64,000 nucleotides of DNA from Saururus chinensis (lineage: Eukaryota > Streptophyta > Magnoliopsida > Piperales > Saururaceae): positions 63,046,581-63,110,580 of the forward strand of contig CP141140.1 in the NCBI GenBank assembly GCA_035235625.1, in the 5' to 3' direction. The translations under genes and the position numbers were made by a program. Positions 37,901 through 60,416 of this stretch are shown piece after piece. The notes beneath the pieces were generated by a model. The model was not told the origin of the DNA and made no database searches. It was given only the letters and a program-made list of their open reading frames with translations. How positions within the stretch are numbered: position 1 is the stretch's first letter; each line of letters starts with the position of its first letter.

Positions 37901-38940
37901 CTGCGCTCAGTACCTGTTTAAGATCTTCCTCATAATCGCTAAGGTTGAAATTGATGTCTGCATCTACACCCCTAAACTTGATTGCCGCTCGATCATAAGC
38001 CCTAAATTGCAAGACCCAATTCCCATGTCCCTCAAAATCTAAAAGAAATGAACTTAACGCATATTAAATACAGGGGAATCAGTTAATTTTTGTTAAATTT
38101 AGCTTATACCTAGCAGCAGCATGAGCAGTATCAAATCCACCTACAAAAGGGAAAACATCCATTGTTCCAGACTCATTACAATCTCAGTTACCAAAACAGA
38201 AAGATAAATCCCAGCATCAAAACTATTCAAACATACCCAAATAGACTTGCTTTCCACAGTCCCTGCACAAGGGTAAATTCAGAAGCAAAGACGATAGAAT
38301 GTTCAATGAAAGCTCCTTTGAACAAAATCCAATAAACAAATGTAATTACTAACCAGATGTGTGACTCCCATCTCCCGGTCCTCCTGTAGAAGGTAACCCC
38401 TCTGTACTGGGAGCTCCTCGACCGGGGCCCGCGGCGGCTCTTCTTCACCTGCTGCTGCTGCAACTCCTTAGCCTCTGCCCCCGCCACCGGAGGCCCACGG
38501 CGGAGGCCCATGTTGCAGAAGCTTAGATCCACCCATTGCGGCCGTCCGGCCGAGGATGAGGAGGCTGAACAGGAATCGCCCAAACCTCCCGCCGCCCACA
38601 CGGGGAACAGCTCTTTTGTGACTGCCAACCCAGAATCTGGCCGAACCTGCCCTTCATCCTCGCCAACTTCCTCTTCGTCCTCTGCCCCTTCTCCCCTTCC
38701 TTTGTGCAGAATGCCAAACTCAAATTCAAAAAGATCGGTGCGACCAGCCACCAGGGTGGAGCTGGAATCCTCATTGCTGGACGCCCCCTCGACGTTCACC
38801 ACCGACGAGTCCGACGTCGCCGCCGAATCAACCACATCCGGAGCGTCCGGCAAATTCTCCTCAGCCTCTGCTGTAGCTCCTCCTTCTCGTACTACTACTT
38901 CTTCATCAAGGAGGAGTGAAGAAACATTGAGATCCAACAT
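34988..38940 (-). CDS. AP2: APETALA2-type (euAP2) transcription factor, miR172-regulated, 10 coding exons
   Basis: Coding exons on the minus strand: 38940-38354, 38262-38237, 38140-38110, 38001-37914, 37821-37676, 37420-37376, 37250-37147, 37042-36903, 36078-35977 and 35233-34988. They total 1515 nt and encode 504 residues, and all junctions are GT-AG in matching phase. The protein starts MLDLNV (EAR-like), has an acidic Ser-rich linker, a basic [12 protein letters not shown] signal (166-177), AP2 repeat 1 (from 179, [18 protein letters not shown]), repeat 2 (from 271, [17 protein letters not shown]), a [12 protein letters not shown]-like motif (347-355) and a tail encoding AASSGF at the miR172 site. 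The 26-nt and 31-nt mini-exons are typical of the family. Such proteins bind DNA in the nucleus and repress flowering or set floral organ identity. Another in-frame Met lies at 39027; 38940 is chosen because it gives the conserved family start. The last intron holds a Stowaway MITE. AP2 versus TOE orthology is not resolved. Confidence 0.95.
35101..35121 (-). promoter_or_regulatory. miR172 target site in the last AP2 exon
   Basis: The 21 bases on the minus strand equal the canonical miR172-binding sequence of plant AP2 genes: CTGCAGCATCATCAG followed by GATTCT. They lie in the usual place, 3' of repeat 2, in the frame that encodes A-A-S-S-G-F. The plus strand correspondingly resembles miR172 itself, differing at one wobble position and the last base. 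Cleavage and translational repression by miR172 is established for this family. Confidence 0.95.
35292..35492. mobile_element. Stowaway-type MITE in the last AP2 intron
   Basis: Ends CTCCTTTCGACCCATATTAA and TTAATATGGGACGGAGGGAG are inverted repeats of the common plant Stowaway terminus. A TA precedes the left end; the right TA is degraded. It lies wholly within the 743-bp intron at 35234-35976. Confidence 0.8.
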
Positions 38941-39027
38941 ACTGGATAAAAAATTGGGGGTGGGAGGATTCTGTAGGGAATCTATTTGCGGAAGAAAAGC
39001 CAGAGGAGGTAGAGGTACTGACAACAC

Positions 39028-39640
39028 AAGGCCGACGTGCTCCTACTCAGCATTTCGATTCCAAACTTCCCACCCAAGCATTTACCCACCCAGGGATCAC
39101 CCTTTTAGCTGGTCTGCTCTAGAAATTCAAATGATCAGTATGAAAACTTGGCCGAAAACCAAGTTGCAAAAGCAACCACTCTTTCACTTGGTTGAAAGCT
39201 AGCTGGAAACCCAAGTTAAAAGCGCAAAGACATCTCCTTCCAGAGCAAAGATCGTAGTTTTCAGCTGCAAGATTCAAACCCAATGGAGAAGGAGCACATT
39301 AGAATAAGAAGACGAAAGAAGAAAAGAAAAAGGGAGGAGAGAGTGATGGCTTGACGGTTTAAATGGGAAGAGACTGAGTGTAAGAAAAAGGCAAGTCTAC
39401 ACGTTCAAGTTTATTCGGATTCGTGGGATCTAGGGAGCCAACCGCCGGAGCCCATGAAAGGAGCACGGGGCACTCTGCTGCAGCTAGAGAGGAAAAGGAG
39501 GCGGATGAGGAGGAGGAGGAGGAGGAGGGAGAGGAAGAGGAAGAGGAAGAAGAAGAATAAAAAGGAAGGGAGAGGGGGGGGAGTCGATGGGACGTGTGAA
39601 GGAACATGTAGGCTGCACCAATCAGTGATATTTTAAGCGC
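39028..39640 (-). promoter_or_regulatory. 5' UTR / proximal promoter of AP2
   Basis: Upstream of the AP2 start codon on the minus strand. It includes a long AGG/GAAGA-rich tract (about 39485-39580; pyrimidine-rich on the gene strand), common in plant 5' leaders. The exact transcription start cannot be read. An open frame of Ser repeats across the tract is not a gene. Confidence 0.5.
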
Positions 39641-39926: not shown

Positions 39927-40051
39927 CTCGCTCTGTCTCGTATTAATATTTTTATTAAAATATATTATTTTTTTATTTGATATTAATAATTATACTTAAA
40001 AAATTAATTATTTTTATTAATAATATATTTTCACTTACGAGACAGAGGGAG
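39927..40051. mobile_element. Stowaway MITE (125 bp)
   Basis: Termini CTCGCTCTGTCTCGTATTAA and the complementary TACGAGACAGAGGGAG, flanked by TA on both sides (39925-39926 and 40052-40053). It is AT-rich and foldback-forming. Confidence 0.85.
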
Positions 40052-41325
40052 TAATTTTTTAAAAAAGTGTATAATAAATTTATGATACACTTTTTTTAAA
40101 TTAAATAAAATTAAGTTATTAATATAAAATAAAATTTTTTATTAAATAAAATTATTAATTTAAAACGAAAAAGTACTTTTTATTAAATAATGATACCCAT
40201 AATAAAATTATGAGATACTTCTTAAAGTACTTAACTGTATAAGGTGAGATGAATGGAGCTATCGATATGGGACAGAGAGATTATTTTTTATCCAATTTAA
40301 TTATATTTATAAATTATGCTGATATCTAGAGTACCCTTAATCCTCGGCCCTGTGTGAACCAATGGGTGTGCGACTCCCTCTCTTAAGGAAATCAAATCAA
40401 CTAATGAAGATTCACCGATAGTTGATCTTCTGACGGTAATGGAGCACAGGAAAATACATAGTCCATACACAAGCTCTTACTTAGGTGTGGTTGTTGCACT
40501 TCCATGTCATGTGCACTATTGATCATGGGTGGTCACCAGTTTACCAACAACATTCATAATGTATAGCCCACTTAAATATTTTTAAACATCCAGTTCTTCC
40601 CCCCTTTAAGTATGAGCGAGAGCTTACACTAACCTTTTCATTATTCTTACCAGCTTTACTTTTTGTTTATATGAGCCTTGGCTCAAGCTATTTATTTTTT
40701 ATTTATATGAGCCTCAACTCAACATGTCAGCCTAAGAGCGCAGACATTACGTGCCTTCGTATCAAGATCTTATAGCGCAAAGGGTAAAAATTAATGTGCT
40801 CCCTAAGTTATATACGTCATTAGATCAAAATTTGAGGTTGGCTAAAGCAATCACACATTAGTTACGACTTATATAAACAAGTCTCATATTATATTATTGA
40901 GATGAGAATGTATACACTTTTATTGTGAGAGTCATTTACTTTTTATTAATCTGTTTTAGAGGAATCCAATTTTTAGTAATTTAAGTTGTTTAAATCCAAC
41001 TATTGAAATAACACTAAATGTCCAATAGGTAGATTGTTTGTTGGTGGTTACTACCGGGCATCGATGTTAGGTATCGTTTTTTAGTTATAAATAAAATATG
41101 TTAAATATATAAATAATATTCTATGCATATTGTATTAATAAATTTATTTTTAAAAATAATTAAGAAAGCCGACACATTTACCATTTTCAGGCCACGTTTA
41201 GCTACCCTTTTAATTTTAACAAGAGATAATTTTAGGTTATATCACTTTATAAAATATCACATCACTTTCGAATAACCTTTAAAACTTAACCCTCCTTTTA
41301 ATAAGAGTCCTTATAGAAAGGAAAA
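40052..41325. other. Intergenic, AT-rich, MITE debris
   Basis: A further Stowaway-like decayed end occurs near 40260-40290 (GGGACAGAGAG). Two short ATATGAGCC(T)-GGCTCAA words at 40665-40725 resemble termini of the foldback family at 47882. No gene. Confidence 0.45.
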
Positions 41326-41494
41326 AGTATATATATGAACCCGGGCTTATGCACGCCAGGCTCTATAGGCCGTTGGATATATAATATTCACATATTTAAA
41401 TGCACATGAGTATTATAAGTCTTCGAATGTAAATCTAATGGCCCATAGATCCCAGGCTCATGTAAGTGTGCGTGAGCCCGGGCTCATATAAACA
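41326..41494. mobile_element. Foldback MITE with palindromic terminus, copy 1
   Basis: Left end TATATATGAACCCGGGCTTAT and right end GAGCCCGGGCTCATATAAAC are inverted and each is itself a near-palindrome around CCCGGG. Similar words (GTCCTTATAGAAAG and ACCCTTATAGAAAAG) lie just outside both ends and may be part of the element or a target duplication. Confidence 0.6.
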
Positions 41495-42080
41495 GGACCC
41501 TTATAGAAAAGGCATTTAAGCTATTTTTCTAAACTCATCAATAACTTTTGTGTCATGTACTAATTATATAATAATTACTATAAAAAATAAGATAAAATTT
41601 ATTAATATAAGATACCTTTTTAACCCGTGTTAACCGGAGTTAACCCATCCTCCTTTTCCTCCCCCTCTCCTCCCTTCCTCCCATCTACAGGTCCATCTTT
41701 CCTCCCTACCTCTGCCTTTCCTCCCCATGGTCACCTCTATCCACCCCTACATTTCTTCCCCAATTTATCTCCATTTGTCCCTACCTTTCTTCTCCAGTTA
41801 GCCTCCGCTCGCCCTGCCTTTATTCCCATCCTTGCCTCCAGCCACTACCCATCCCTCAATGATGGAGGCCAAAGTTGAGATTTTTTCTTCTCCAAGAGGT
41901 GTTCTAATGACAAAGATGGGAGGCGGAGGTAGTATAGGCGGGGTCCCTTTGAGGGTCGGATCTTTGTTAGCATCATTGGCTTCTTCTGAAGGCAAAGAGA
42001 TTAGGAAAAAAATAGCAGTGAAAAGAGGAAGAAGACCAAAGAGGGTGGCCAACCTTGCCCTTAACTATGTGTTGCTCCCT
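41495..42080. other. Intergenic; pyrimidine-rich then purine-rich stretch
   Basis: The part at 41645-41800 is CT-rich and keeps short frames open on both strands (41627-42098). Their products are low-complexity with no domain. Confidence 0.45.
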
Positions 42081-42797
42081 TGTTATGACCCGCCCTAGGG
42101 TCGGGTCTACCATTAGTATAATTAGGATTTATTTATTAGTGATTATATTTTCAAGTAATTAGGATTTCATTCTAGTTAGAAGTCTATTTCAATTAAGAAT
42201 TTCATTAGCATTAGGATTAGGCTTATTAATTGCCTATAAATATATAAGTATGTAGAGGTTGTCTGTTTTGAGAAATTACATAAATCAAATGCAAATTAGT
42301 TATTTTATTTTATTATTCAGTTATTTCTCTTATACTTTTTGTTTAATTTAGCTTATGTGGACATCGGTCTACACCATTGTGGTAGGCCCCTATGTAGTCC
42401 ATTGTGTGTCTTCATTCCTCAATCACAAAAGTTGAAGACTACCTCGAAGATGAGATGGAAAGGAAGCGAGGTGGAATGTTATGACCCGCCCTAGGGGTCG
42501 GGTCTACCTTTAGTATAATTAGGATTTTATTTATTAGTAATTATATTTTCAAGTAATTATGATTTTATTGGTCTTAGGTTTATGTTAGAGGCTCATTCTA
42601 GTTATTAAGTCTATTTCAATTAAGAATTTCATTAGCATTAGAATTAGGCTTATTAATTGTCTATAAATATATAGAGGCTATGCCTATTTTGAGGAATTAC
42701 ATAAATCAAATATAAGTTAGTTATTTTATTTTATTATTTAGTTATTTCTCTTATATTTTTCGTTTAATTTAGCTTTTGTAGACATCGGTCTATACCA
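42081..42797 (+). mobile_element. TRIM-like miniature LTR element
   Basis: Two direct terminal repeats, 42081-42376 (296 bp) and 42477-42797 (321 bp), begin TGTTATGACCCGCCCTAGG and end ACATCGGTCTA(C/T)ACCA. They flank only 100 bp. A purine-rich AAGGAAGCGAGGTGGAA precedes the right repeat, as expected of a polypurine tract. The left repeat lacks about 24 bases present in the right one. Flanking 5-mers TCCCT and TGCCT are a possible duplication. The base run after the left LTR (TTGTGGTAGGCC) is a weak primer-binding site. Confidence 0.8.
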
Positions 42798-43288
42798 TGC
42801 CTCTTTTTGTCGTGAACCACCTCCAACATCGTATCACATCTAGTAAGGAGAAGTGCATCCTCAGCCCCGATTTGGCAGTTCCCAACTTTCCCTTTCTCTC
42901 CCAGACGATCCTACTTTGATTTCAATCCCAAGTTCTCGGCTTCTCCCTCTTTCTCCTTTCCTCATGTCCATCACTTCTCCTCCCCGACCTTGGCCCCTCC
43001 CTTAATCCTCCCTTCTTCTCCCCAGCCCCAATCCCTCTTCCACTTATTTTTTTTTCAGAACCCGGATTAGACCGGTTATCTAGGTCGCTGGTTTAACTGA
43101 CCGGGTGAGGTTCACCTGCACTTGGCAGCTTGGACAACTCGGCCCAAATTGTTGACTGGGTCCAATTAAACACAATAAAACTGGCTTAGCCGGTTTGGGT
43201 TTCAAAACACTGCTCACAAATAAAAAACCTAAGCATGTGGGGTGGTCGAGAAAGCAGAAATCAACAAGGGGCTCTTAACAAACTTTTA
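42798..43288. other. Intergenic, CT-rich
   Basis: CT-rich from 42930 to 43050, then GC-richer DNA. No gene. Confidence 0.4.
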
Positions 43289-43440
43289 TCTTCCACTTTT
43301 TTATCATATTATTTTAATAAATTTTTTATTTTATTATTGGTTTGGCAAGTTTGGTAAACTAGGTTCTCTTCTATTTTTTCATCATATTATTTTAATAAAT
43401 TTTTATTTTATTATTAGTTAAACTTGGTAAACTAGGTTCA
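43289..43440. repeat. Tandem duplication of ~75 bp
   Basis: Two adjacent copies share TATTTTAATAAATTTT, TTATTTTATTATT and CTTGGTAAACTAGGTTC. One copy has a short indel. It is non-coding. Confidence 0.75.
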
Positions 43441-43967
43441 TGAAATCAGTAGAAGTACATGCACACTGCCAGAGACACCAGTTGTCAACCATCCAACCTG
43501 CTTGGTGCTTCCCAAGTAGGAGCCACAATCCCTTTCAGATTTTCTTCTTTTTTATTTTTTGAGGAGTTTCCGGATCTTCTTCTATTATCAGCCTAAAATA
43601 TTATTATTATTATTATTATTAATAAATTTTGGGAAGGATCAGATACTACCCTTACACATGTAGAAAATGTCACACATGTCCCTAGTAGTTGAAGGTCCCT
43701 AGCTTCATATTGGGGAAATATTTTCCTTTCACAATGAGCTGAGTATAAAAAATATATGAGAGTCTTTCATCCATGAGATCAATGTTACACATTATTATAT
43801 ATTAGTGCTAATAATGTTAGCATTAATGTATACTAATGTATGTGATATCAATCTTAAATACCAAATGTTCACATATTTTTTTTTATACTAGGCTTATTAT
43901 CAGTAGAAAATACGAAAAAACTCTAACCCAAATTGGAGTAGCAATATCAAAATTCGAATCAACTGGG

Positions 43968-44000
43968 TAGGCACTCCCACTGGTGTGGTGGGAGTGCCTA
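43968..44000. repeat. Perfect 13-bp inverted repeat (hairpin)
   Basis: TAGGCACTCCCAC (43968-43980), a 7-nt loop, then GTGGGAGTGCCTA (43988-44000). The word recurs once more, partly, at 44037 (TAGGCACTCC) next to the Harbinger insertion. Role unknown. Confidence 0.85.
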
Positions 44001-44051
44001 ATCAACATTAGACACATAGGTAAAACACATTTGGTTAGGCACTCCTATTAA

Positions 44052-44608
44052 GGGGTCGTTTGGGTACTGAATTAATTCAGTAACGATTCGATTCAGTAGC
44101 GATTCAATTCAGTAAATTCATCGCTGATTATGAATTACGTTTGGCTATAGAATTTGTTAAAATAAATTCAGATGTCACGTCAAACCCAGTCTTAAAACTT
44201 TAAACACCTCTAACTCTCTCTTTCGAACTCGGATATGCACGTTCTTGGTACCATTACACTCCTAAATTCAAGCTCTATCAAACAAGATCCCACAAGGGTA
44301 GGTAATCTTGAACTTTTAAAGTGGGCCCTACCTATATGACACATTTTTTGAAGCTCAAATCGATATGAACGATAACCATTGAAAAATAATAGAATCTGTA
44401 ATTTTTTAAAACGGTGATTAGGAAACTGAATCACCTCATGAGGTGATTCAGTGATTCAGTCTTGATTCAGCCGAACGGTTTGAATCTTACTACGATCTTG
44501 AATTTTTAATTCAGCGACTTCAGTACACAAACAAGATTCTAATAATTCAGTGCTGAATTGACACTGAATCGGCTGAATCTTCTCACGATTCAGTACCCAA
44601 ACAGCCCC
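44052..44608. mobile_element. PIF/Harbinger (Tourist-like) MITE, 557 bp
   Basis: Termini GGGGTCGTTTGGGTACTGAA and TTCAGTACCCAAACAGCCCC are inverted repeats with few mismatches. The 3-bp duplication TAA flanks both ends (44049-44051 and 44609-44611), the PIF/Harbinger signature. ATTCAGT words are repeated in both arms. No transposase. Confidence 0.9.
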
Positions 44609-44611
44609 TAA

Positions 44612-47307
44612 ATGTAGTAAGAGTGCCCGCCAATGTTTTAAAAATCGACCTGACCATTGACCCTAAATGGTCACCGAGCTGGGTCAATTGGGTTCAACCA
44701 TGGGTTAACCTAGGTTGACCCAATTTTTTAATATTTTATATTAAAGATAAATTTGTGTAAGATGGTTACACAAAATTCTCATAACTTAGTTGATAGAGTA
44801 CATAAGACTAGTAATTACTTGGTGTTGAAGCATTGCAAAGTGTGTATATATATATAATAAATAAAGTAATTATGTAAATAAACAAAACTACCATAGCTTA
44901 TTGCACTTGCGCGAGTTCAAATCCGGCGCAAACCACGAAACTTCTTTCTTCAAAACCTCACATAGAACGTTAAACGTCAATATGATCTAGTAAGCCAAAT
45001 GAACTAGACCAGTTTATGACCCGGGTCTAATTGAACCCGGTGCAATCAGCTGGGCTGGGCCGAGTTTTAAAACACTAGTGCCCGCGTAGCCACGTAGCCC
45101 CTCTAAGCCCGCAAAATCAAGCATGTGATTCGTGTGGTCTGCCTGCTTCGGCTCCGCCCCAAAGTCCACTTGCCCTTTTTGGCAGGTGAATCATTTCATT
45201 TGACTCAACGTGGTCCCCTTCGCCCCTACTCCTTCATGTCCTCTTTTACTCCTATCAGCGTCGTCCCGGTGAAGTAACACGCAGGTAAAGTTTCACCCGC
45301 GGTTCATCACCAAAAATTAATGGCGTACCTTTTAGCACGCATGGTTAACATAAAATATACGTACAACTATATTAATGGGTGTGTGACGTGTGTCGTGTAC
45401 GGTGGGTGAAACCTCGCCAGCATTAGCATGTGAAGATTCACCAGTTAACAAGTTTTCTACTTTCAAATGGCGTAAAAGGTTTATTTACCCTTGCACGTAA
45501 GAATGTTCACGAGTCCCATGTTTGCACATGAAGCCCACATATCACTATGAACATGCGAGCGCATGTAACATTTTTATTTAAAGTGTGTGTTTTTTTTGTT
45601 TAAAATGACAAGCCTATCTATCACAAAGGTGCAGGCGCCATAGTTGTGGAGAGAGGTTGAAAACATTAAGGCAAAGGCATTTATAAAAAGAACATGTGAC
45701 TTTGAACGCATGACTGGTAAGAACTTGTGCCCTCTCCATCGGAAGAGCGATTTGAACTAAATTATTTTGAAAATTAAATAAGACATACTTAATACGAAAT
45801 ACGAGGAAGAAGTATTTTGAAGGAGTTCTTGTGCTTTCGTAGCAGGGAGGGATTTGGGGTTGCAGCCGTACATAAGTTAGCCATAGCGGGTTACGGCTGT
45901 GGTGCTTTACATGCCTTTCCCCGATGACCAAGGACGAGGAAGAGATAGGCAATGGAGACATCTAAGCGGAATTAAGCTTGCACTTTGCCCTCAATTAATA
46001 TACTACATATTATAAACAAAACTCAACTCATAACCCTGATCAACCCTTGAAAGCCAGATCAGAAGCAATGATCAAAAAGTGACGAAAAGGACCTGAAAGG
46101 AAACCAGACCGGTGGGCAAGAAGCCGGGATGGCCAGGAAAACGACTGCCTTCTCCCTTATTTGGCATGCATTTACCTTAAAAACAATTTTTGATCAGAAT
46201 TTGGTGAACTCAACCTTCCTCAATCAGGCAACCACCGACGAGCACAACGTGGATGTCGTGCAAATGAGAATCACGGCTGCTTCCTGCCCATGAGCCCCAC
46301 CGTAGTGAATATTTTAGTGGTATTATTGCCTCCTGCTTTTGTGTTATCTCCAAAGTCCAAACACTTGTGGACGGTAGCTGCCCGTAACCAGATACGAATA
46401 TGGGGAAAAAAATCCCCAAGGGAACTCACTGACATTATTCTATTGTTCTGTAAACGTCTTTAGATTTCTCGTATTAACTATAAAGTTATATAGCATGCTG
46501 GAACTACACTTTCCTTTTCTTGCAACTGGTAATAGGACAAGGATGTGTGAACTAAGGTCATGGAAAACTGGGACGAGTGAATTATTGCTAGTTATGTCAT
46601 TATCATGAAGTTGGTTTTAATGGAAAGTTGAAGATGAATTACTTCAAAGCAATCCAATTTTGGTACTTACACATGTTGTACTAATGCACAAGTACATATA
46701 TGTCAAGAAGTGCTTTAATTACCTAATGCTATTGCACTTTTAAGTTGCTAAAAAACTACCGGATATATTGAATTGGCATCACTTGCCAAAGTGTTTCTTG
46801 CCGACCTAAGTGATGAAAAATATGTCTAATGCGTATTTTATGCATAATTTGTATTTTTCTCATCCTACTGTAAAAAGTGTTATATTATTCGCGGTTTTTT
46901 TAACGCATAATAAACATTTTATATGTATACTTACTATTTAATACACGTATTTTGTGTTTAAAGTGCAGATTATACCCATATTTTGAAATAGCCCTTTGAT
47001 AATTTTTTTCTTTCAACTTTATAATCTTTTGGCTCTGATTGCTTAACGAGCTCTCTAATGATATTTTTCAGGCATTAACCTACTCTAAGTTTATGACAAT
47101 GGAGAGAAAGAAGTCCTCTTATTTTTAGTATTTTGGGGCTACATTGTGATTATATTTTTAAATTTTAGTATTTCTTTGTATTTTTATGTTTTTTCTATAT
47201 ATTTTTTTGGGTCATTTTTTATATGTATCCTCTAATCGTATTATAGTCATACCCATACTTTGTCACTTAATTACTGACATGGTAGAGTTTTTTTTCTTAC
47301 TTATATA
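44612..47307. other. Intergenic; no gene supported
   Basis: Short minus-strand frames at 45614-45961 and 46210-46419 match no family. A degraded TTCAAATCC-like T-arm word at 44915 is not part of a foldable tRNA. The remainder is AT-rich. Confidence 0.5.
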
Positions 47308-47514
47308 CTCCCACTATCTCTTATTAAGTGTCTCATTTCAAAAAGACATTTGTCCCGTATTAAATATTCTATTTCTCATATGCCTACCATGCAGAAAGAT
47401 TCTAACATGCTTCTTATTATGGTAGGAGTTGTCTTTTTGTGGTCCGAAGTGCTTCTTATCTTCCTTAAATGTTAGACTTTTAATAAATAATCAATTAATA
47501 TGAAACGAAGGGAG
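47308..47514. mobile_element. Stowaway MITE (207 bp)
   Basis: Left end CTCCCACTATCTCTTATTAA and right end TTAATATGAAACGAAGGGAG, flanked by TA (47306-47307 and 47515-47516). Confidence 0.8.
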
Positions 47515-47881
47515 TAACTATTTGTAGGAGTTGCTTATTAGTATCATATGCAATTCTGATAGTGTGCAACGGAATGATATCTTCTTCGGTGAAAATCAGT
47601 GACATGGCAGTACATAGACACTTCGGGTCAATTAAGGTTCAATATTGGCTCTTCCAGTATGACAATAATATGATTATGGGATCTTAGAGTATCTCCCTTG
47701 CACCCACATTGTTGCCATATAGGTTGCAAAATTATTTACAGTTTCCTTCAAATGGAATAGCGCTTGGTAATAAAGAAAATTTCATTTGATCAAAGAAAGA
47801 CTCATAGTAGATGCTATTTTGGTATTGCGTATTGGTTATCTTGAAAGTATACAGTAGTTTTATATTTTGGAATAAGAAAAA

Positions 47882-48081
47882 GTTTATATGAGCCAGGGCT
47901 CATATCTGCTTATGTGAGCCCAGGCTTTATGGGCCGTTGGATTTACATCCGATGGCCCATAATATTTATGGATTTTATGAATATTATAAACCCATGAGTA
48001 ATATGAGCCGCCAGATGTAAATCCGATGGTCCATAGAGCTCGGGCTCACATAGAAATATATGAGCCCAGGCTCATATAAAC
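47882..48081. mobile_element. Foldback MITE with palindromic terminus, copy 2 (best preserved)
   Basis: The termini GTTTATATGAGCCAGGGCTC and GAGCCCAGGCTCATATAAAC are inverted copies; each contains a GAGCC-GGGCTC palindrome. The interior repeats GGGCCGTTGGATTTACATC and its complement, so nearly the whole element folds back. GGAATA lies just outside on both sides (near 47869 and 48091), a possible target duplication. Confidence 0.7.
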
Positions 48082-50732
48082 AAGACTCTTCGGAATATGT
48101 CAAATGAATTTGTAACGGTTAATGTTGTTGGGCCACTATCCAAAATCTGCCTATATCAGTTTCATTTTTTTTACTTTAATTTGATTAGAGCTAATCTATT
48201 TAGGTGAAACAAAAATCATATTTCTGAATACTATCTGAGGTAATCTGCTACTATATCCCTTGCCTCACACTCCCTCTTCTAATACTGCAAAATAGAGAGT
48301 AAAACATAAGACAAAGCCGTATTTTTTTTATCTTTCAACGAACTTGACTAATGACATGCCCAATGTATTAAAAAATACTCCATTAAGGCCACCGATATTT
48401 GTACTTAATAATGCTACGTGCGCTGAAGCACATGATAACTTGATGGATGTCCTCCGAGCAGGTCTCATGCCCAAAGGTGGCCCTACACATGTATTGTGTG
48501 TAACAAAGGAGTCCTGGGTGCAAACATATAGCATATTAATATAGTTATATTTTTTTAAAGGTTAAAAATAATTATTATTGTCGTTAATTAGTATTTTGGG
48601 GTTTTATTGAAAGAGGAAGTTAGAAAGGGGAAATATTAAACTCCATCTGTCTTATATTAAAAGTTATATTTTTTTAAAAAATATTGAATGGTGAAACACA
48701 CATTTAAGATAAGGGAAAATAGGATTATTATATTTTTTTAAGTACTCAATTATTTAAATTAAACAAAGTAGAATAATTAATATTGAACAAACTTTTTAAA
48801 AAAACAGAGACATCCACACATACTATATGTCCCATGTATTGAAGAAGAATGACCTTATAGCTAAGGACCTCAATCCCAATCTTCAAAGTAGAAAGGGGGC
48901 ATGCCCAAAGTTGGTGTAGGAAAGGGAAAGGCCATAGTGATAGGAAGAAGCACTGGAGGAGGCAGAAGGTCTTTGAAAGAGTTGGAGTTGGATTAAGAGT
49001 TAGTCTAATTAGGAGTTATTTAAATGTTATTAAGGAATAAGGGCGTTTATATACTTATTCTCCCACTTTCCCCAAATCCAAACAAAGCTTTAATTCTTAG
49101 TCTATTATTATTTATCTTTATTTGATGAGCCTTAGGAGCATATTAGTGAGCCCATTAATACTTCTATTTAAACATAAGGGGTTAGCTTAATTTTAGTTAG
49201 TGAATGAATAATCTTTTTTACTTAATTCTCATTCTTCTATCCTAATGTCCCCTTTCTATGTCACTATGCTTTTATATTCCTCTTCTTGACACATTGCTTA
49301 CCATGAGCCTAATATTTGTTAATTTCTTGAAGAAATAATCATCACACCTTTAAAAAAAATATTAAGTTATGGATAAAATTTTCACTTACATGGTTATTAA
49401 AATAATTTTTTTAGGAAAATGATATTTATACTCTAATTTTTCTACACCATAAGCCTTACAATTGGATAGGGAAAGTGAGACCCACCTAACAATATGAGAT
49501 TCATTTTTTCCTATCTAATCAAATTGGTATAAGGCCTATGAGTGTAAAGATCATGGTATTAGAATATCAATATAATTTTCTTATGATTTAATTCACTTTC
49601 TTTTAGCCTAAAAATTGAACAATTTGATGGGAAAATGAGAGAGAAAGAACTTAACCATTTTACTATGGATCCACTAGATCGATGTCATACATACTAACAC
49701 ACATTTGCTAATGTATATACCACCAATCTTAAATGACTTTTAAACCTAACTTACACTAAATTCATTGTAGAGGGAAAACATAAAAGACTGCCAAAAAAGA
49801 AAGAGGACTACAGATCAATAAGGTTATGTCAAACAGGGTTATACCGTTGTAAAATGCTTATTCATCGTATGAAGATTTCTGACCCTTGGAGGGTTTTACT
49901 GTCCACTGTGGTGCCAATTATTGAGTCAGACAAACCAGTAGTAAATGCTGCCTCTCACGTGTATTGACTTTTTCCTTTTTCTTTTAATGTTGTGAATGAA
50001 AGAAAGGGAGTTTCTCCGTTGGCTCCTCTGTTGTTTTGGAATCATGTTCCGTTTTGTTTTTTAAAAAATAAATGAAGAGAACCATAAGATTTAAGTAAAA
50101 AGGATTTTTTTTTCCTTGTCAAGTAAAGTCAAAATTGGAGAAGCCAAGGGTACATTTGAGAACAAGGATTTTGGCCATATATGTGATTTAATCCAAATCT
50201 TATGTTTGACAACATATTTTGGGGTAGAATTTAATTGTCCCAAATCACGTCACTTGTTATACAACTAAAAAGTAGATAAACTCAAATCACAGGGTTAATC
50301 ATATCTTTTACAAATCTCACTTAAGTGGGATTCTTATCTAAGTCATTTTCTCCTCACCCGCTTCTCCTCTTCATCTCTCCCATTTTCCCTCTTTTTGGGT
50401 TTCTGTTCTTATTATCAATGTGAAACCAAATCTTAACCAAATTCCACATTCCCAAATGAAGGAATTTAAAATCTCCCTTTTAAAATCACATAGTTCTTAA
50501 ATACTTAATTCTTAAATACAGATTTTACTTATTCTATAATCTACAATAACATGATTTAAACGTTAATTTTTTTTTCCAGTCAAGTAAAGCCAACATTGAA
50601 GGAGTCATGTCAATATTACAAACGTTTATCAAGTCATGAGCAATATATGTAGGTGCTACCTATTCAATATAATGATTACATTTAATGTGTGCTACAGCGG
50701 TAGGTCATACATTTACTTCCAACTTGAGTAAT
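48082..50732. other. Intergenic with a decayed Stowaway-like element
   Basis: At 48641 a CTCCATCTGTCTTATATTAA terminus opens a Stowaway-like stretch ending near 48808. Overlapping open frames at 48328-48544 lie on opposite strands and match nothing. No gene recognised. Confidence 0.5.
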
Positions 50733-50865
50733 ATGAAATGGGCAGCTCGGTGGTCGTTCCTTGCATTTATTTTGCGGTTGCTGAGACTTGGCTTCAAATG
50801 ATTGTGACTCGCCCACAGTATCTCTCCTAGATATGACCTTAGTTTAAAATAAAAAAGTTTATGAA
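50733..50865 (+). mobile_element. tRNA-derived SINE remnant
   Basis: Contains a box A-like CAGCTCGGTGG (50742-50752) and, about 45 bases on, a box B-like ACTTGGCTTCAAAT (50786-50799). An ACTCGCCCACAGTATCTCTC tail region and an A-rich end (to about 50865) follow. This order is that of RNA polymerase III SINEs. The internal promoter is decayed. Confidence 0.55.
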
Positions 50866-53812
50866 AGATTGGTTAATTTATGCCTGCAAATATATACAAA
50901 AATTCTTATATAAGTTTTGGTTAAATATAACCAAACTCATGTGAAAGTTTTTGTTGGGTAAATATCATTAGCTCTTTGCACAAAAATAATAAATGAATTT
51001 TTAGAATATGGAAAAATTTAACATGTATCCGGTTGTATTGAGTGCTCACATGTAACACAACATATCAAAGGCTATCGGAACTTGATTTGATGGCACCTGT
51101 GATATGCACGTGGGCGGATCAAAACCTGCTTACCCTGTGTGATAGCATATGCACATAGGCATATGCAAACCACATATAAACAGAGCATTTAGAATATTTA
51201 CCCTTAAATAAGTTTATATTCCCTCCAACCCACGCATTAATAATTTGTTTTGAAAAAATAAATAGAGCAATTTATGAGGGAGTATACTCCTTTCATCCCA
51301 TATTAATAGTTATATTTAAAAAAAATTAAATTTATTAATAATAAATAAAAATTAAGCTTATGATACTCTTTTTTAAATACCCAAATTATTTAAATTTAAC
51401 AAAATATAATTATTAATATGAAACAAATTTTTTGCTAAATAAAATTATTAATTTAAAATAGAAGGACTATTAATTTACACACAAAAAATGTTGAAAAAGT
51501 CCATTTGAAAAAAAAGAGTATATCACATAGCAATAACTTTATGTTGCTCAATTTAAGTGGCTACGAATATAAAAATAAAATCTCATAAGCTTATTTTCGG
51601 TTCTCTTAGTTGCAGATCTTACACTCAAGAAAAATCAGGAGCAAAGTTACACAAGTATACATATGGGAAATTTATAACATGTAAAAATTTATTTATTTTT
51701 AAAAAATTAAAATTATATATATATATATATATATAGTGTCAAATGATAGTTGTTTGGAGTCTCACACTTACGCAAACTTTGTCTTAAATTTCAAATGAAG
51801 TGAAAAACAATAGTCGAGTATTATATTGAATTTGTTAAGACGTTGAAAGTTTTAATTATTAAGTAAAATTTATTATTTTTGTACCTTAGTAAGTATTGCA
51901 ATGAAAAAAGCTCACAGAAAGAAGATAATTAAATCAAGCGTGTATGTTTTGTCCTTAAGATATAATTTGTCATCCATACTGGTGCATAAGAATTACTTAA
52001 GCGTTAGTCTCTTAAGATAAGATGATTTACCATACGTTGTAAAAGTACCTTCTAACAAAATTTGTCATGATTGAAAACTATCCATAATTTGTTATATTCT
52101 TTTATTATACTCTATCCATCTTGCATTAATAGTTTTATTTAATTTTTTAAAATAAATTAATTTTAATTTTTTTAAATTAATTAAAACTATTAATTTATGA
52201 CAAAAAAATATTAATTAATAAAAAGTTCTTTCTGAAAGTTGGACATATATATTATATTTAAGTATTATATCTGTTCTACAAGTTTCTAATTTTTAAGAAT
52301 CAATTTGCAGGGGGGGAGGGTAGAATCGATATTTGAATGTTGCATGAGGGGCAAAATACGGAATATAGAAAAACAGCCAATCTCGAATGTCTGCTGTTTC
52401 TCAAATGTGGGCTTCCTCAAAGTTCAGTATAGTATTAATCTACTCCCGGGGATGCAGGCCCCGCACATGTGGTATTTCGATTAATGTGCAAGGGATTCTA
52501 GGCGCTGTCGGCACTGGAGTACGAGGTTTGGCCACTTTAGACGTACGTGGGCTTCTTGCCTCCATACCTAGAATTAGTGACTGTAAAGCTCATGTCCTTC
52601 TGACCGGTGCCCTCCACATTGTGGGAGGTTCTGGCCCTAAATAAGGCACGGGTTATTGGTCACGAGATGTAAGTGTTTAATTTTTTTAAAATAAAAAATT
52701 AATTTATTTAAAAAAACTAAATATGATACTACATGACAAAAGGAGGATATAATTAACGCTTACATGTGATTTATATGAACATGTTAATTAAAAGATATAT
52801 AGAGCACACTTTGAAGCAGCTTAAATTAACGGAGAGGGGCGTTATCTCTATACGATTGACATAAATTTACTTTATTAATAGAGGGAAATATTTTTATGTT
52901 TCATATTCATTGTGAGCTGACCGTAAAGAATATATGTGAAATCGTTTATTTTTAACATCGACGGTCTAAATAACCCCTAACAGGGCTCAAATAAAGTGAT
53001 GATATGAACAACAATCGATGATTAATATGCGAACAGATTTCGACTTCCTCATCATGTTGCGACTGTTGGCCCATCTTCTAAACCAGTAGAGCCACTGTTC
53101 CTTGCATTGCAAACAAAAGAGTGGTCAATCGTCATCTTGATTTATTTGTAAGGTGGTAGTAGGACACTGGAGGAGGTTGCGTGTAGCCGTGTAGGGGGCT
53201 AAGCTAGGATCTCACATAAAATAAAAGATTGTGATGGTTTAACAACATCTCACGTGTGGTCATTACTGGATAACGTTAGTGATTAAATATGAGATCACCA
53301 TTAAGGAGAAAAGGACTCATTTATATTGAATAATGATATCCAATCTAATATTCTAATCTCCATTATCTGATTGGTTTTGCTCAGCATGTTCAACTATGAT
53401 TCTGGGCAGTTGAAAGGTACAAACAAAAATATCCGTAGAGAGCTCAGAGGGCTAGGTCAGGCTTGTTGCAAAGTAGGAAGACGTAATACACTTAGTTTGT
53501 CTACCCAGCCAATTACATATTTTTTTTATCTTATATTAATAATTTTATTTAATAAAAAAAATTAATACTTAAAAAAGAGTATCATGAGTTTATTTTTTAT
53601 TTTTTTAATTAAAATTAATATATTTTAAATATAACTATTAATTTTGTACGGAGATTATTTCCATTTCCCTAGTGAATAGCATGGGACCTTAACCACGAGC
53701 CACATAATTAAGTTGTACCTCTTAGTTTGGGTTTATGGGCTAGACACCTAAACCTAATTATAATAACAATATATTTATTTTATTTTATATTAATATTTTT
53801 TTAAAAAAATAA
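50866..53812. other. Intergenic, AT-rich; several decayed Stowaway ends
   Basis: Stowaway-like termini open at 51287 (CTCCTTTCATCCCATATTAA), 52112 (CTCTATCCATCTTGCATTAA) and about 53530. A (TA)n run lies at 51718-51735. The open frame 52387-52644 has no family match. No gene supported. Confidence 0.5.
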
Positions 53813-53947
53813 ATTTATATGAGCTCGGGCTCATGCAAATGATTCATTGGGCTGCCTCCAAGTATTACAGGCTATCGAATATAAATCCATATGTCCATAG
53901 AGCCCGGGCTCAGCAAGTACGCATAAACCCAAACTCATATATATGCG
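53813..53947. mobile_element. Foldback MITE with palindromic terminus, copy 3
   Basis: Left end TTTATATGAGCTCGGGCTCAT and internal AGAGCCCGGGCTCAG match the family at 41326 and 47882; the right end is more degraded. Confidence 0.55.
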
Positions 53948-56340
53948 ACTCTTTTTCAAAATAAATCAACGTAAAATTAGAAGAGTACATGACCGAGCAA
54001 TTTTGCTCTTTGCTCCTATTCAGTATCGGCTGAACGACTTGACAGAACGTTCCCATCATGCAAATTACAATTTCATTCTCATTCTAACCAGTCATTAGCT
54101 AGCATTTGATGAACATTTACCAATCTGTCCCAGGAAAATTGGCTATACATTGCAACTTGTAATCTGTTCCCCCGGTCAAATGAATGAACATCAAGTCTTA
54201 GAAGAGAGTCTCACATCATGGCAAAAGGTGCTACAAGTGTAAATGTCAAAGGATACTGATATTTTCACAACAAACCTACAACTCACACAAGAGTTTTAAT
54301 TTAGATTTCACAAATAGGCCTAACACAAAGTTTACACGGGCTTATTTATTTAAACTAATTAGTGAGTTTTTGAATTTGAAAATATTATTTTTTAATATTA
54401 AATGAGGTTGTATAGCTAACTCCGAGCTAACATGGCCGCGACCAAGGTGCTCCAACTCACTAGCCAGCTTTGAAGTTACAACGCTGACTAGATTTCTCCA
54501 TACTAAATTTATAATTACAACCACTTATCAGATCAGCCCTGAGCAAATTTTAGTCTCTGGATCCGGTAGGCAAATAAGTTGCATTCAGACCGGATCCTGG
54601 ACCGCGTTCTGTCTATTTGGTCCGGACCCGGGCGGCTGTGCGCCATTTTTAATTTTTCAAAATCTGGACGGTCCATCTTTCTTCGTGCGTCTAATTGGTA
54701 CGTAACAACCAGTAGTGGGGACGCACCGCACAGTAAAGATATGAACCGGACTATATTTTCAAACCAGACCGGCTCACATGTCCCTCGCCCAGTTAGATCC
54801 CAGAAACCACAATTATTTTTTAATTAAGAGTTAGCGTCCGATATTCCCTCGTCCTTTGTTTTTTACGGAGAAAATTGTTTTTGTCACTCCTTTGCTAGGC
54901 TAACCAGAATTAAGAAAAATAAAAAACAATCTGGTTCGAATAGGGTTCGGTAAAAAAAACCGCTCGGACCGAATTTTATCTTTTGAACCGTACGGTTCGG
55001 CTGTGGCTAGTGAGCATGGCAGCGGGCCGTATAAGGAATTAGGTATCGAAGATTAAGCCGAGATGTCGACACTCGAGCCGCTCGAGTCGATGAATCTTTG
55101 AAGGTCGAATCCATGGTGCAGAAATCTAATCAGTTCGTAAGGCAAGATTCTTGATAGTCCCTCTAAAATTGAAGAAGATCGCATCTCTAAGCTTGAATTT
55201 TTTGTCCTTATTTCTGACTGCTGTTTTAAATTGGGTGGCTTTTCAGGTTTCTTATCTTCTGAGTTATGGCACCTTCCAATTGAGTTCCATAGCGTTCAGT
55301 TCCGCCTAGATTTCGTCTGATATTTGTTCAATTCCTAAGTTCATCTTCTGGGTTTTGTATATTTGTAGGTAATGATACATTTATGCATCTAGTTTTGATG
55401 ACTTCACATATTGCAGCTTGTAATGAGCTTCATAATTTTCAAATTTCTGTATCTCTTCTATATAGTAAGCTACACCTGTTTTATGTAAATTGGATAGGAA
55501 ATTTAGCTCCGGTAATGCTAACACTCAAGCAAATTTTAGTCTCTTCTGCCTCTTTTTGTTTTCATTTAGTGCTGCTATCTGCCTCGTGATATTTGGAAGC
55601 TTTCTTCACCTGATTTGATCATTATGTCTATTAACTTTCCATGAACAGAAGGTGGATATTTGTACTTTTCGTTCTCCATTTTTTTCAACACTTGAGTAAT
55701 TATTGGCAATGCTATTGTAAAGTAAGGTTAGCAATGGTTTCAAGCTTGTCTGTGATGAACCAATTCGATCTGGCAAGCACCTTCGTCCTTTAGATTGTTG
55801 GAATGACTCGACTGGTAGTGTTTAGTTCCATTATTAATGTATAAATGAGTTTTAAATTTTTTTATTCCATTTGGTTGCTAAATAATGGTCATGTTTCACT
55901 CTCCATTTTTTCCCCTCTTTTGCCATTCGTAATTAATCAGAATGCTTTACTTTTATTTCAGTAAAATGAACAATGATGTAAGCATTTGGGGAATAAAAAA
56001 TTGCCTCATGCATGCACATGCTAATTTGTCCTACTAAAGTAATAAACTAATTAGATCAACTATAAATGCAGCATTCATTATTACAGTTCGAAAGAATCTA
56101 CATTTTCCTACATGCCAAATAATTTCGTGTTGTAGACTTGTAAGATTCTTTTGCGAGATGTTTAGTTGATGCGTCTTGTTAATTTCATAGAGCACACATT
56201 TGGAATTGGATTTTTGGATACTCTTTGTGTTTTCACCAATTTATAATTTAGGTAATGGTTGATTAAGTAATGCCTCTAAGGTCATGATGGTGATTAGTAG
56301 ACTGGCTTGATTGTAGATCATAGAGATTGAGTAATTTTCA
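53948..56340 (+). promoter_or_regulatory. Upstream and probable 5'-UTR region of the BED-ADT gene
   Basis: No coding exon is recognisable. In particular I find no Ser-rich Met-initiated transit peptide leading into the dehydratase. Possible non-coding exon junctions are a donor-like TGAAG|GTCGA at about 55101 and an acceptor-like TTTTCAG|GT at about 55250. Another acceptor-like GATTGTAG lies just before the BED start codon, and an in-frame TAA stands three codons upstream of that ATG. Confidence 0.4.
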
Positions 56341-59300
56341 ATGACTGGAAAGGAGAGGAAGCGGGATATTGGTTGGGATCATGCAATTAAGGTCGATGAT
56401 AGCAGATTCAAAACCAAGTGTAAATGGTGTGGGCACGTAATGTCTAGTGGAGGCATTACACGGCTAAAGATACACCTTGCTGGTATTGGTGGTAATGCTA
56501 CGGCTTGTACTGAATGTCCAAATGAGGTGAGGTTGGCAATGAAAGAGCTTGTCCGAGGTGTCCAGACGAGCTGTAGCAAGTCAAAAACAAAGGGCATTGA
56601 AGCGAATCTTGACCATAGTTATGATGGCCTCCATCTGCGTGATGATAATGCATTTGAAGCTGATGAGAGAGATGAGCTGAGGGTGGTTGCTCTCCAGAAC
56701 CATGAAGATACAGGTGAGATTGTAGGTTTTTCAGTCTTCTCTTACATTATCAGCCATACTTGTAATGAGAACTACTTATAAAGGCAATTTGTTGAGTAGA
56801 CATATTCTTGCTCTTAAGTTGGGTTTCTATACCAATTTTCAGGGAATTTGACCTCAATAGATATACCTAGTTCAGTTAATCAAAGGTCTCGTCTTCGTAT
56901 TGCTTATCAGGTTTTGGAAATAAGCTTATCTCGTGCTTTTCTGTATTGACTTTTTTGAATTATGTCAAAGTTCTGATAATTGGTATTTTAGGGTGCTCCT
57001 GGTGCTTACAGTGAGGCAGTGGCAGAGAAAGCTTATCCAAATTGTGAAACAATTCCATATGAACAATTTCAATCTGCTTTTGATGTAAGTACCTTTTGGT
57101 TTGTTTTGTTTGCCTTTTAAATTTACATTAGAGTGTAAAAGCTATAAAAAGTTTTAGGATTGTCTTTCATCAGGTATCATGGGAGAGTCCGCTTCCTTGC
57201 AGTTTCCATGTCTATTCACAAATTATTTTTCTCTTTTTTTTATAAGGTCTACTAATCATTTATTGGGTGATGTCAATCTCTTAAGATTTTTGTCCTACTG
57301 AACAAGTAAGGCACAAGGAGCATGTAAATTTTTGGCGTACTGGAGATGACGATGTTGAAGAAATCAAACCCTTAAAACATTTGTCTCACTGTTTTCACTC
57401 TTTTGAGATACTTATTTTTCTGGTGCTTCATTTTGTTCATAATAATCGTGACTGGAGAAAGAAAAATAAAATTGTGTTTCTTTTCCAGGTCGCTCTGTCC
57501 TTTTAGTGAACATGCATTTTAACTTTCCTTACGTATGTTTGGGCAGAAACTGATTGGCTATAAATTTGGCATACCCCAATATTTTAGGTAGACTTCTTCA
57601 AACTGGTGGGCTGATCCAAAATTCTTTTTATTTAGTTGTTGATGGTACCTAATATATATTTTAGCGAAAATGTAGATGCTGAAATAATCTGGATACTTGC
57701 TGTTTGTTTAAATACATATTACTCTTATCTGTACTTTCAATACATGTAATCTGCAAATTCATATGTTTGTAGAATTTTTTAGGACTGACATACCATGATG
57801 CAAGTTGATGTTTGTCTAACTATGATTTGTTTGAAGTTTTCTCAGTTTTAGGTAGATAATATAATTTATTTATTTTTGATTGAACACAAAAATTCGAGTA
57901 CTCTTCTCTAAATCATGTGTCATATGCATGTGAAATTTGGATCCTCAGGAATCATAGCAACTGAGTTTTGCGAGGCTGATCTAGGGTTAGCTTCTCAAAA
58001 CGTGCTCATATTGATTCCTTCTAGCTACTATTGATTTTAATACATTATGCTATAAATCTGGTCCGTGTGTTTAGGCTGTTGAAAGATGGCTTGCCGATCG
58101 AGCAGTTTTACCCATCGAAAATTCCCTTGGGGGGAGTATCCATCGGAATTATGATCTCTTACTTCAGCATAAATTGCAAGTTGTTGGGGAGGTGTACTAT
58201 GGAGTTCGCTACTGCTTGCTTGCAAACCATGGTGTGGAAGTTGGAGACCTGAAACGAGTGCTTAGCCATCCTTACGTAAGCTTTTCACTTTTCTGCTGAA
58301 TGTTTCACCCTACCAAACTTGAATGCATGCATTCCGATGCCATTTGGTCATCTTATTTAATATCATCAATGGATCTAGAGAGTTAGGCAGTTTGGTGCAA
58401 CTGATGCTACCTCTGGATCAGGCACTAGCGCAGTGTGAGAATGCACTAATGAAGTTGGGTGTGACTAGAGAAACTTATGATGATACTGCAATTGCTGCAC
58501 AGGTAAAATGCTGTCTGTTATAGAAATAATTTGTTTTAGTTATCTTCCTCTTTTTTCCTATCTCAGTTTTAAGTTTCCACATCACAGGATAGGGTTACTT
58601 TCGTTTGCTACTTGAGGATATGATATTTGTGGTTATCTTCTTCCAATTTCTTTATAAAGTTTTTCTTAGGAAGTCATGTTCTCTCTTGACAATATTTAGA
58701 TCAGCACTGAGTGCAATTAATATATTTACAATATCGTAATGTGTGTTTCATGTCCTATGTAGTTTGTTGCTGCTCATAAGTTTCAGGATGTAGGCACCAT
58801 TGCTAGTTCTCGTGCTGCTGAAATCTATGGGTTGAACATTCTGGCCCATGATATCCAGGTATGTACTGATGCAACCATAGTTGATTACTTCCTTTACTTA
58901 CGACTTATATATTGTAATGTTGTATCATTCTGATTCTATTTTACTAACGATGTATATATTGTAAAGTTGCATCATTCCGATTCTGTCCTTGTGTAGGATG
59001 AGTCTGATAACATTACTCGCTTTCTGATGCTTGCAAGAGAACCAGTTGTTCCAGGTGTCGATAAGCCATATAAGGTTCACCAATTCTACTACCAAAGTTG
59101 TATTTAAGGTTCTTGTCTTTAAGTTGCTTAGTTTAGGCTGCATCTCAAACCGAACTCATAGTGTAAGACAAAGTGGTTGGTTAAAGCATATTTAAGGTTT
59201 CAATATGTTTGTTTTAAACAACGGAGTGCTGGTGGGATGGCTAAGACACCATGCCTTAGGTAGTGGAGGTTGTGAGTTTGCACCCCACTCTGTTGGCCAC

Positions 59301-60416
59301 CCACTGGGATTATATCCAGACTTAACCTGGTGCATCTAATTTGTGGTTGTTTCGCATGTCTGAGGGGATAGGCAGTGACATACAGTGCTCTAAGAGGCCA
59401 ATTGCCCCCCCCCCCCTCCAGCTGGGTCCCAAGAGCCTGGACGCTCCTGTTAGCCAAAAAACAAAGATGAATTTACTATTCAGATTAAGTTTGAAATGGG
59501 ATAGTGTGAATGCTTATTGAACGAGAAGAGTTAGCCTTACTGTGTTGTGCTACCACAGGGCAAAGTGACTGCAACCTGGCAGAACTGTTGTATATTGTCT
59601 CCTTAGAGTTTTTAACAATCCTCTACTCTCTACCTTTTTTTTTTGCTGATACTCTATTCCTTCATTTGCAGACAAGCATAGTGTTTTGTCTAGATGAGGG
59701 GCCTGCTGTCCTTTTCAAGGCAGTTGCAGTTTTTGCAACACGTCAAATCAATCTTACAAAGGTACATATTCTCATGTCTGTTGTGTGAACAGATCCTATT
59801 CATGTTTGGTGCATCCTCCTATAAAAAGCTTTTAAAGGTCATCTTCTATTTTGCTCTCAGATTGAAAGCCGCCCGCTATGGAAAAGACCAAAACGTAAGC
59901 AGAATGATAGCAGTAATGGTTTATTAAGGCAAGTATGAAAAAGCATTTTCATTCATGCTTCTCAAAGTAAAGTGCATTTGTATGTTTGTCCTTTTTTTGC
60001 AATTGTTGAAAACATGATACCAGCCTTTTTATTAATCATAAATTTATATCTTGGATGTGCACAGGTGCTCAGAATACCTCTTTTATGTTGATTTTGAAGC
60101 ATCAATGGCAGATCCGGTTGCTCAAAATGCCCTTAGAAATCTGAAGGTGGAAGATCTCACTGAAGCCTATCAAGTGCTTCAATTTTTTTATCTCTTGAGT
60201 ATCACATGATACCCCCCTCTGTCACACATTAATAGTCCTATTTGGTTTTTCAAAATGAAGTAAAATTAGTTAGCTTTGGAAAATCAAATAGGACTATTAA
60301 GACGGGATAGAGGGAGTAATATATCTTTTACTATATAACACATCATGACTGATATTTGCTTGCAGGAGTTTGCTACTTCCGTGAGAGTGTTAGGGAGCTA
60401 TCCAAAATGGGTGTAA
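56341..60416 (+). CDS. ADT: BED zinc finger fused to arogenate/prephenate dehydratase (11 exons, 426 aa)
   Basis: Exons: 56341-56713, 56843-56910, 56992-57084, 58075-58275, 58422-58502, 58763-58858, 58997-59074, 59672-59761, 59861-59928, 60065-60146 and 60366-60416. Exon 1 encodes a BED finger ([13 protein letters not shown] at 27-30, H45, C56). Exon 2 joins it in phase (g|gg) and leads into RLRIAYQ; exon 3 continues GAPGAYSE, the start of a PDT domain (~141-325). Family landmarks are [33 protein letters not shown] and the catalytic NITRF (Thr311). The ACT domain (~331-420) has ESRP and [13 protein letters not shown]. Known ADTs decarboxylate and dehydrate arogenate to phenylalanine in plastids and are feedback-controlled through ACT. 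No transit peptide is visible, so a BED-headed form may not enter plastids (inference). The end (SYPKWV) is short for the family. Intron 9 is GC-AG. A separate undetected first exon or alternative start remains possible. Confidence 0.85.
56372..56560 (+). other. BED-type zinc finger domain in exon 1
   Basis: Covers W12 to about residue 73. The spacing C-x2-C, then H after 14 residues and C after 10, with [16 protein letters not shown] and CPNEV, matches plant BED fingers. These are found in hAT transposases, their domesticated descendants and BED-NLR immune receptors. BED fingers bind DNA. In plants they are commonly followed by a hAT dimerisation domain; none follows here. Confidence 0.88.
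59221..59466 (+). mobile_element. tRNA-derived SINE in ADT intron 7
   Basis: Box A-like GGATGGCTAAGACA (59236-59249) and box B-like GGTTGTGAGTTTGCACCCC (59268-59286) are spaced as in tRNA-headed SINEs. A non-tRNA body with a C run (59406-59418) follows, ending in an A-rich tail (59455-59463). It lies inside the 597-bp intron at 59075-59671, in the sense orientation. The long minus-strand frame across it is incidental. Confidence 0.65.
59929..60064 (+). other. GC-AG intron (intron 9 of BED-ADT)
   Basis: The donor is AAG|GCAAGT, the recognised strong consensus for rare GC donors, and the acceptor is TGCACAG|GT. Using it keeps the conserved ...[15 protein letters not shown] reading frame. The nearest GT donor (59895) would shift the frame against the downstream exon. 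Confidence 0.85.
60212..60316. mobile_element. Stowaway MITE in ADT intron 10 (105 bp)
   Basis: Ends CCCCCCTCTGTCACACATTA and TAAGACGGGATAGAGGGAG are inverted and flanked by TA (60210-60211 and 60317-60318). Long inverted arms around CCTATTTGGTTTTTCAAAAT make a strong hairpin. Confidence 0.85.

Follow-up and report, generated by a model that had tools for sequence, protein, structure and literature searches.

Within a 64,000-nucleotide stretch of the Saururus chinensis genome (the window), an exon encoding a BED zinc finger lies directly upstream of exons encoding an arogenate dehydratase (ADT). We asked whether these exons form a single gene and, if so, what its product would do. Our favored answer, to which we give a probability of roughly 0.6, is a chimeric plant gene in which the BED-finger exon heads an ADT2-type dehydratase body and supplies its start codon.

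A BED zinc finger exon in frame with dehydratase exons

Eleven forward-strand exons (56341-60416) splice to 1281 nt encoding 426 amino acids, with a terminal stop. The earlier note had claimed that the BED exon splices in frame to the ADT exons with all ten junctions in phase, and this is confirmed – the reading frame is kept across 10 of 10 exon junctions and contains no internal stop. Nine of the ten introns have GT-AG ends; the exception is intron 9, with GC-AG (AAG/GCAAGT, the slash marking the exon boundary). The exons and the first intron are as follows:

56341..56713, + strand: exon 1, ATG, BED zinc finger and acidic linker; 124 codons plus one base (phase 1)
56714..56842, + strand: intron 1, 129 nt, CAG/GTGAGA ... 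TTTTCAG/GG; non-coding composition from the donor onward
56843..56910, + strand: exon 2, first part of the conserved ADT2 body; it lies at the alignment column to which the various upstream parts of ADT2 proteins are joined
56992..57084, + strand: exon 3, PDT catalytic domain
58075..58275, + strand: exon 4, PDT catalytic domain, motif-bearing
58422..58502, + strand: exon 5, PDT catalytic domain, AQC motif
58763..58858, + strand: exon 6, PDT catalytic domain
58997..59074, + strand: exon 7, PDT catalytic domain, TRF motif
59672..59761, + strand: exon 8, where the ACT regulatory region starts
59861..59928, + strand: exon 9, ESRP motif; followed by the GC-AG intron
60065..60146, + strand: exon 10, ACT region
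60366..60416, + strand: exon 11, last part of the ACT region, with the stop codon

The BED donor (CAG/GTGAGA) matches 8 of 9 consensus positions and ranks first among the 8 sites that score at least 6 between 56341 and 56842. The BED open frame starts at 56335, shortly 5' of the exon 1 ATG, whose context (TTTTCAATGA) is poor relative to the plant consensus. In-frame methionines of the fusion protein stand at residues 1, 34 and 67 and then at 255, 315 and 397. Residue 255, the next methionine after the BED exon, lies far inside the catalytic domain, so that translation of the enzyme would depend on the BED start codon.

Several introns of the gene have features of their own. Intron 6 carries a 47-nt unit in two tandem copies (58893-58984), intron 7 a stretch that by eye resembles a tRNA-derived SINE with a C run after it (59226-59440), and intron 10 a MITE-like foldback of ~100 nt (60215-60314) with arms that are 78% complementary and, by eye, TA flanks.

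The BED exon has a frame-specific coding signal

With 21.2 bits (E 3e-4), the spliced protein lies just above the Pfam zf-BED cut-off of 20.6, and the BED ORF on its own reaches 25.5 bits. Putative zinc ligands are C27, C30 and H45, with C56 or C59 as the last – 11 or 14 residues past H45, a longer gap than is usual for BED fingers. An AF2 model of the BED exon alone had a pLDDT of 35, and a PDB search with the exon returned two matches only, both to SALL4 fingers (E 0.45 and 0.46).

We scored coding potential in each frame with the ADT exons alone as the training set. Read in the frame of the gene, the BED exon scored +11.6 bits/100 nt, compared with -3.1 and -3.4 for the other two frames, and the score dropped to -9.4 in the 65-nt open stretch directly 3' of the donor (intron mean -8.6). 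Its three-base periodicity was matched in 0 of 5000 shuffles. The score is noisy, since held-out ADT exons span values from -2.5 up to 15.6, and at 12473-12854 a GC-rich stretch scored 7-9 in all three frames; frame specificity within the BED exon is its telling part. Because the coding signal is frame-specific and stops at the donor, we ruled out a chance open frame.

We consider it less likely, on evidence given here and below, that the locus instead comprises two neighbors: a single-BED gene, with an ORF running to 56781, and either a 5'-truncated ADT2 pseudogene or an ADT with an unrecognized first exon. Land plants are described as having many single-BED genes (a survey counted 144 among 750 plant zf-BED genes, alongside 390 BED-DUF-hAT genes and some fused to other domains; PMC9296551), and the BED ORF stays open for 22 codons beyond the splice donor. 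Its coding signal, however, ends at the donor rather than at the stop codon.

Exon 2 begins where homologous upstream sequences diverge

We compared the predicted protein with the best 120 of 7999 homologs at E <= 0.001 (8000 candidates scored). Apart from seven duplicated, algal, ADT1-like or otherwise odd proteins at the top of the ranking, the named ones are mostly flowering-plant proteins annotated as ADT2, arogenate/prephenate dehydratase or hypothetical. Among the 115 homologs with a recognizable core, the residue before a PLS/PLT stretch is R in 86, K in 12, G in 10 and T, M or P in one each, and the stretch is missing in 4. The pattern (L/H)P-(R/K)-PL(S/T) occurs in 92 of the 115. Upstream sequence is non-standard in all ten homologs with G (P0012, P0015, P0016, P0030, P0034, P0051, P0062, P0066, P0074 and P0075), and this G falls at the same column as in the window protein, where the split codon G/GG is followed by NLTS. 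Non-standard upstream parts at the junction occur, for example, in proteins from Populus, Asparagus, Cornus and Pistacia. In the Pistacia vera protein (P0051, an annotated ADT2 isoform) the exon 2 junction is preceded by a PF20168 region, another foreign first part.

Both R and G would fit a split codon n/GG, as expected of a phase-1 acceptor, and K would need other bases; we infer the intron position in the homologs from their proteins rather than from plant genomic DNA. Because the exon 2 acceptor coincides with the column at which ADT2-like upstream sequences switch, the BED exon occupies the position that a transit-peptide exon should hold.

No other convincing first exon within the window

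The earlier note had named a separate upstream transit-peptide exon as one of the findings that would speak against a fusion; in the 56 kb of the window that precede the BED exon, neither tblastn nor donor scans yielded a convincing candidate for another first exon. Searches (tblastn) with two whole homologs placed the sole ADT locus of the window at 56827-60407. When we searched the window with 111 ADT N-terminal parts, no transit-peptide exon emerged: the best match had an E of 0.04, a value that is reachable by chance with so many queries. At 3986-4045, a stretch of 20 aa matches the end of the usual ADT first exon with 55% identity (E 0.075).

A donor scan of 40000-56842 (donors of at least 6/9, phase 1, ATG ORFs of at least 35 codons) produced 2 candidates, the BED exon being the stronger, and a laxer scan from base 100 (donors of at least 5/9, ORFs of at least 55 codons) produced 16 ORF starts including the BED exon – both scans being blind to exons below their length limits and to split 5' parts. 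Among the longest peptides of the other 15 ORF starts, none ends in LP. We set aside two stretches whose ends are not LP: 48356-48476 (40 aa, donor 6/9, coding score 6.6) and 52387-52606 (donors 5/9, coding score 1.5), the latter having a transit-peptide-like composition with no acidic residue in its first 50. A further weak alternative is an open stretch at 36674 that ends in LP ahead of a GT.

These weak alternative first exons at 48356-48476, 52387-52606 and 36674, together with the tblastn match at 3986-4045, lend the two-neighbor reading some weight. The low yield of the 111 N-terminal queries and the lack of an LP end at 48356 and 52387 argue the other way.

On a more doubtful reading, a working ADT2 has several alternative first exons, of which the BED exon is one, and the transit peptide is borne by another form whose first exon lies outside the window or is unrecognized. 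The non-standard upstream parts of 10 of the 115 homologs, including the Pistacia protein with its PF20168 region, lend this some plausibility. It is countered by the lack of a convincing transit-peptide exon in the 56 kb upstream and by the accelerated divergence of the dehydratase (see below), which is unexpected for the main plastid enzyme.

Returning to the chimeric gene, the BED exon sits at the position of the transit-peptide exon, in phase and with no convincing upstream transit exon in the window, so that replacement would fit better than addition. The earlier note had proposed that a domesticated transposon exon either replaced the transit-peptide exon or was added to it. Replacement is the better-supported part of that proposal; the origin of the exon is taken up below.

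The dehydratase body is diverged but retains its motifs

Exons 2-11 encode a complete plant ADT body. The PDT domain (PF00800) is matched with an E of 5.4e-58 at residues 144-319 of the spliced protein. The Pfam ACT model was not matched in the spliced protein, as is also the case for some of the ADTs compared (e.g., P0010). The ACT region is nevertheless present, because PDB prephenate dehydratases align through PDT and ACT – the best over residues 140-422, with 2qmx extending to residue 422. The motifs ENS, SHP, AQC, TRF (311) and ESRP (362) are all retained. A GPAVLFKA segment stands at 340, and the window protein has KAVA in place of the KALA of its homologs, so both alanines are kept; we take Ala314 to lie within the PAC segment. 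The motif names TRF, ESRP and PAC follow those used for soybean ADTs (PMC10845154).

The ADT part is 70-74% identical to its 30 best homologs. Set against 110 homologs – a sample biased to conserved proteins, because it holds only best matches – the window protein has a different residue at 14 of 126 invariant columns (next worst, 2) and at 32 of 206 columns that are at least 90% conserved (next worst, 12). Its terminal branch is the longest of 111 sequences (0.335 against 0.138 for the next). The tree places the window ADT beside two Aristolochia proteins with a support of 0.835, a placement that the long branch makes unsafe. Such strong divergence could mean relaxed constraint or early decay, and a highly diverged ADT part is in keeping with the pseudogene version of the two-neighbor alternative.

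The pattern of change points elsewhere. The 74 changes have a mean BLOSUM62 score of 0.09, against -0.42 for neutral draws (maximum of 300 draws, 0.08), and 14 of them fall in invariant columns, against 32.8 expected under neutrality (minimum of 300 draws, 21). With changes that are conservative and avoid invariant columns, and with no stop or frameshift, a plain neutral pseudogene is less likely. The open frame alone is weak proof, because the probability of meeting no stop under neutrality is 0.14, 0.05 and 0.015 for 37, 57 and 77 changes. The intact splice sites and frame of the ADT part, with its conservative changes, also count against two neighbors. Judged from its sequence, the BED-ADT gene is probably still alive, or was so until recently.

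A product predicted to remain in the cytosol or nucleus

Acidic residues (D+E) make up 10% of the first 50 residues, a level seen in 1 of 96 ADT homologs, and S+T make up 12%, a level equaled or exceeded in 93 of the 96. With its BED head, its acidic residues and no convincing transit exon upstream in the window, the fusion has no obvious chloroplast transit peptide, and its product should remain in the cytosol or nucleus.

The earlier note had invoked the Arabidopsis enzyme ADT5 as a nuclear precedent. ADT5 is reported to reach the nucleus via stromules, i.e., from chloroplasts (PMC5444438) – a path different from that of a fusion with no obvious transit peptide, so ADT5 lends the nuclear reading little weight. 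Petunia PhADT3S, described as a transit-peptide-free, cytosolic protein with prephenate dehydratase activity (PMC6318282), is a closer precedent than ADT5. For soybean ADTs, alternative starts have been proposed as possibly leaving the enzymes in the cytosol (PMC10845154). Taken together, PhADT3S, the retained PAC alanines and the soybean alternative starts make a relocated dehydratase the simplest reading, and the product would most likely be a cytosolic or nuclear prephenate/arogenate dehydratase without a transit peptide.

A DNA-binding regulator that senses Phe is conceivable but unsupported. One version, which we give only a slim chance, is a feedback transcription factor that arose through exon capture, in which the BED finger would aim a Phe-binding ACT/PDT module at DNA and nuclear phenylalanine or prephenate would control its targets. 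Slimmer still are the prospects of a nuclear DNA-binding regulator that senses phenylalanine via the ACT region and retains little dehydratase activity: the BED finger, the accelerated evolution with replacements at invariant sites and the report of ADT5 in nuclei (PMC5444438) would suit it, but TRF, ESRP, ENS, SHP and AQC are all kept, which would favor catalysis.

Origin of the BED exon

Besides hAT transposases, BED fingers are found in domesticated genes and as the sole domain of a protein. Protein searches for BED relatives returned none at E <= 0.001 among 123 candidates with residues 1-140 and none at E <= 10 among 168 candidates with residues 1-124. The RNase H-like catalytic and dimerization domains of hAT transposases were absent from the spliced protein by Pfam, and none was found in 17 other window ORFs scanned, which cover a small part of the window. 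By family membership a transposon source is likely; this part of the earlier proposal gained neither a relative nor a hAT domain to bear it out.

Other features of the window include a reverse transcriptase fragment (24446-24790, + strand; RVT_2, E 1e-24), presumably of copia type, an ORF with a strong DUF7086 match (4015-4887, - strand; E 4e-64) and a segment that is AP2-like by eye (38230-39042, - strand), in an ORF that alone has no Pfam match.

A model for the fusion and its relation to known proteins

In the model that we favor, a copy of an ADT2-type arogenate dehydratase would have lost, or been cut off from, its transit-peptide exon. The upstream BED-finger exon would then have been spliced to the conserved intron-1 acceptor, supplying the start codon and presumably the promoter. 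The predicted transcript would encode a protein that, with no obvious transit peptide, is kept in the cytosol or enters the nucleus. The most likely role of this protein would be that of a prephenate/arogenate dehydratase in the cytosolic route to phenylalanine, and the BED head would at least shift its location; a DNA-binding role for the head would be a further, conjectural step.

Fusions of host genes to transposases reportedly arise by exon capture, with a transposase DNA-binding exon joined in frame to a host gene, as Cosby et al. are said to have described in 2021. The window gene resembles these in having a transposase-type DNA-binding exon whose splice sites are in frame with a host gene, and differs in being from a plant, in having an enzyme as the partner and in that the transposon origin of its exon is presumed. 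With plant ADT2-type dehydratases it shares the PDT and ACT body and an exon 2 joined at the same column. Aligned with three homologs, it has no internal gap and a C-terminus three residues shorter. Unlike these dehydratases, it has a BED head, no transit-peptide exon and many replacements at otherwise invariant sites.

Like cytosolic PhADT3S, the window protein is a dehydratase without a transit peptide; whereas PhADT3S is attributed to a second transcription start with no added domain, the window gene has a new coding exon (PMC6318282). BED-NLR immune receptors and other plant zf-BED fusions likewise join a BED finger to an unrelated host protein (PMC7761493, PMC9296551), but the partner in the window gene is an amino-acid biosynthetic enzyme. 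The 22-class zf-BED survey names GST and Glyco_hydro_1 as fusion partners, and its main text contains 0 mentions of 'prephenate' or 'dehydratase' (PMC9296551). The earlier note knew of no described BED-ADT protein, and our searches agree: a zf-BED domain is marked on none of the best 120 of 7999 ADT homologs, and we found no description of such a protein in the open-access papers searched. BED fusions and transit-peptide-free ADTs are thus already known separately – it is their combination that appears to be new.

If transcribed, this gene would clearly exemplify, in a plant, how an exon of the DNA-binding, transposon type can supplant a targeting exon by way of a shared splice phase, and a phenylalanine-synthesis enzyme would have left the plastid in a single step. 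The gene would also offer a natural test of the roles of ADTs in the cytosol and nucleus, the question raised by ADT5 and PhADT3S.
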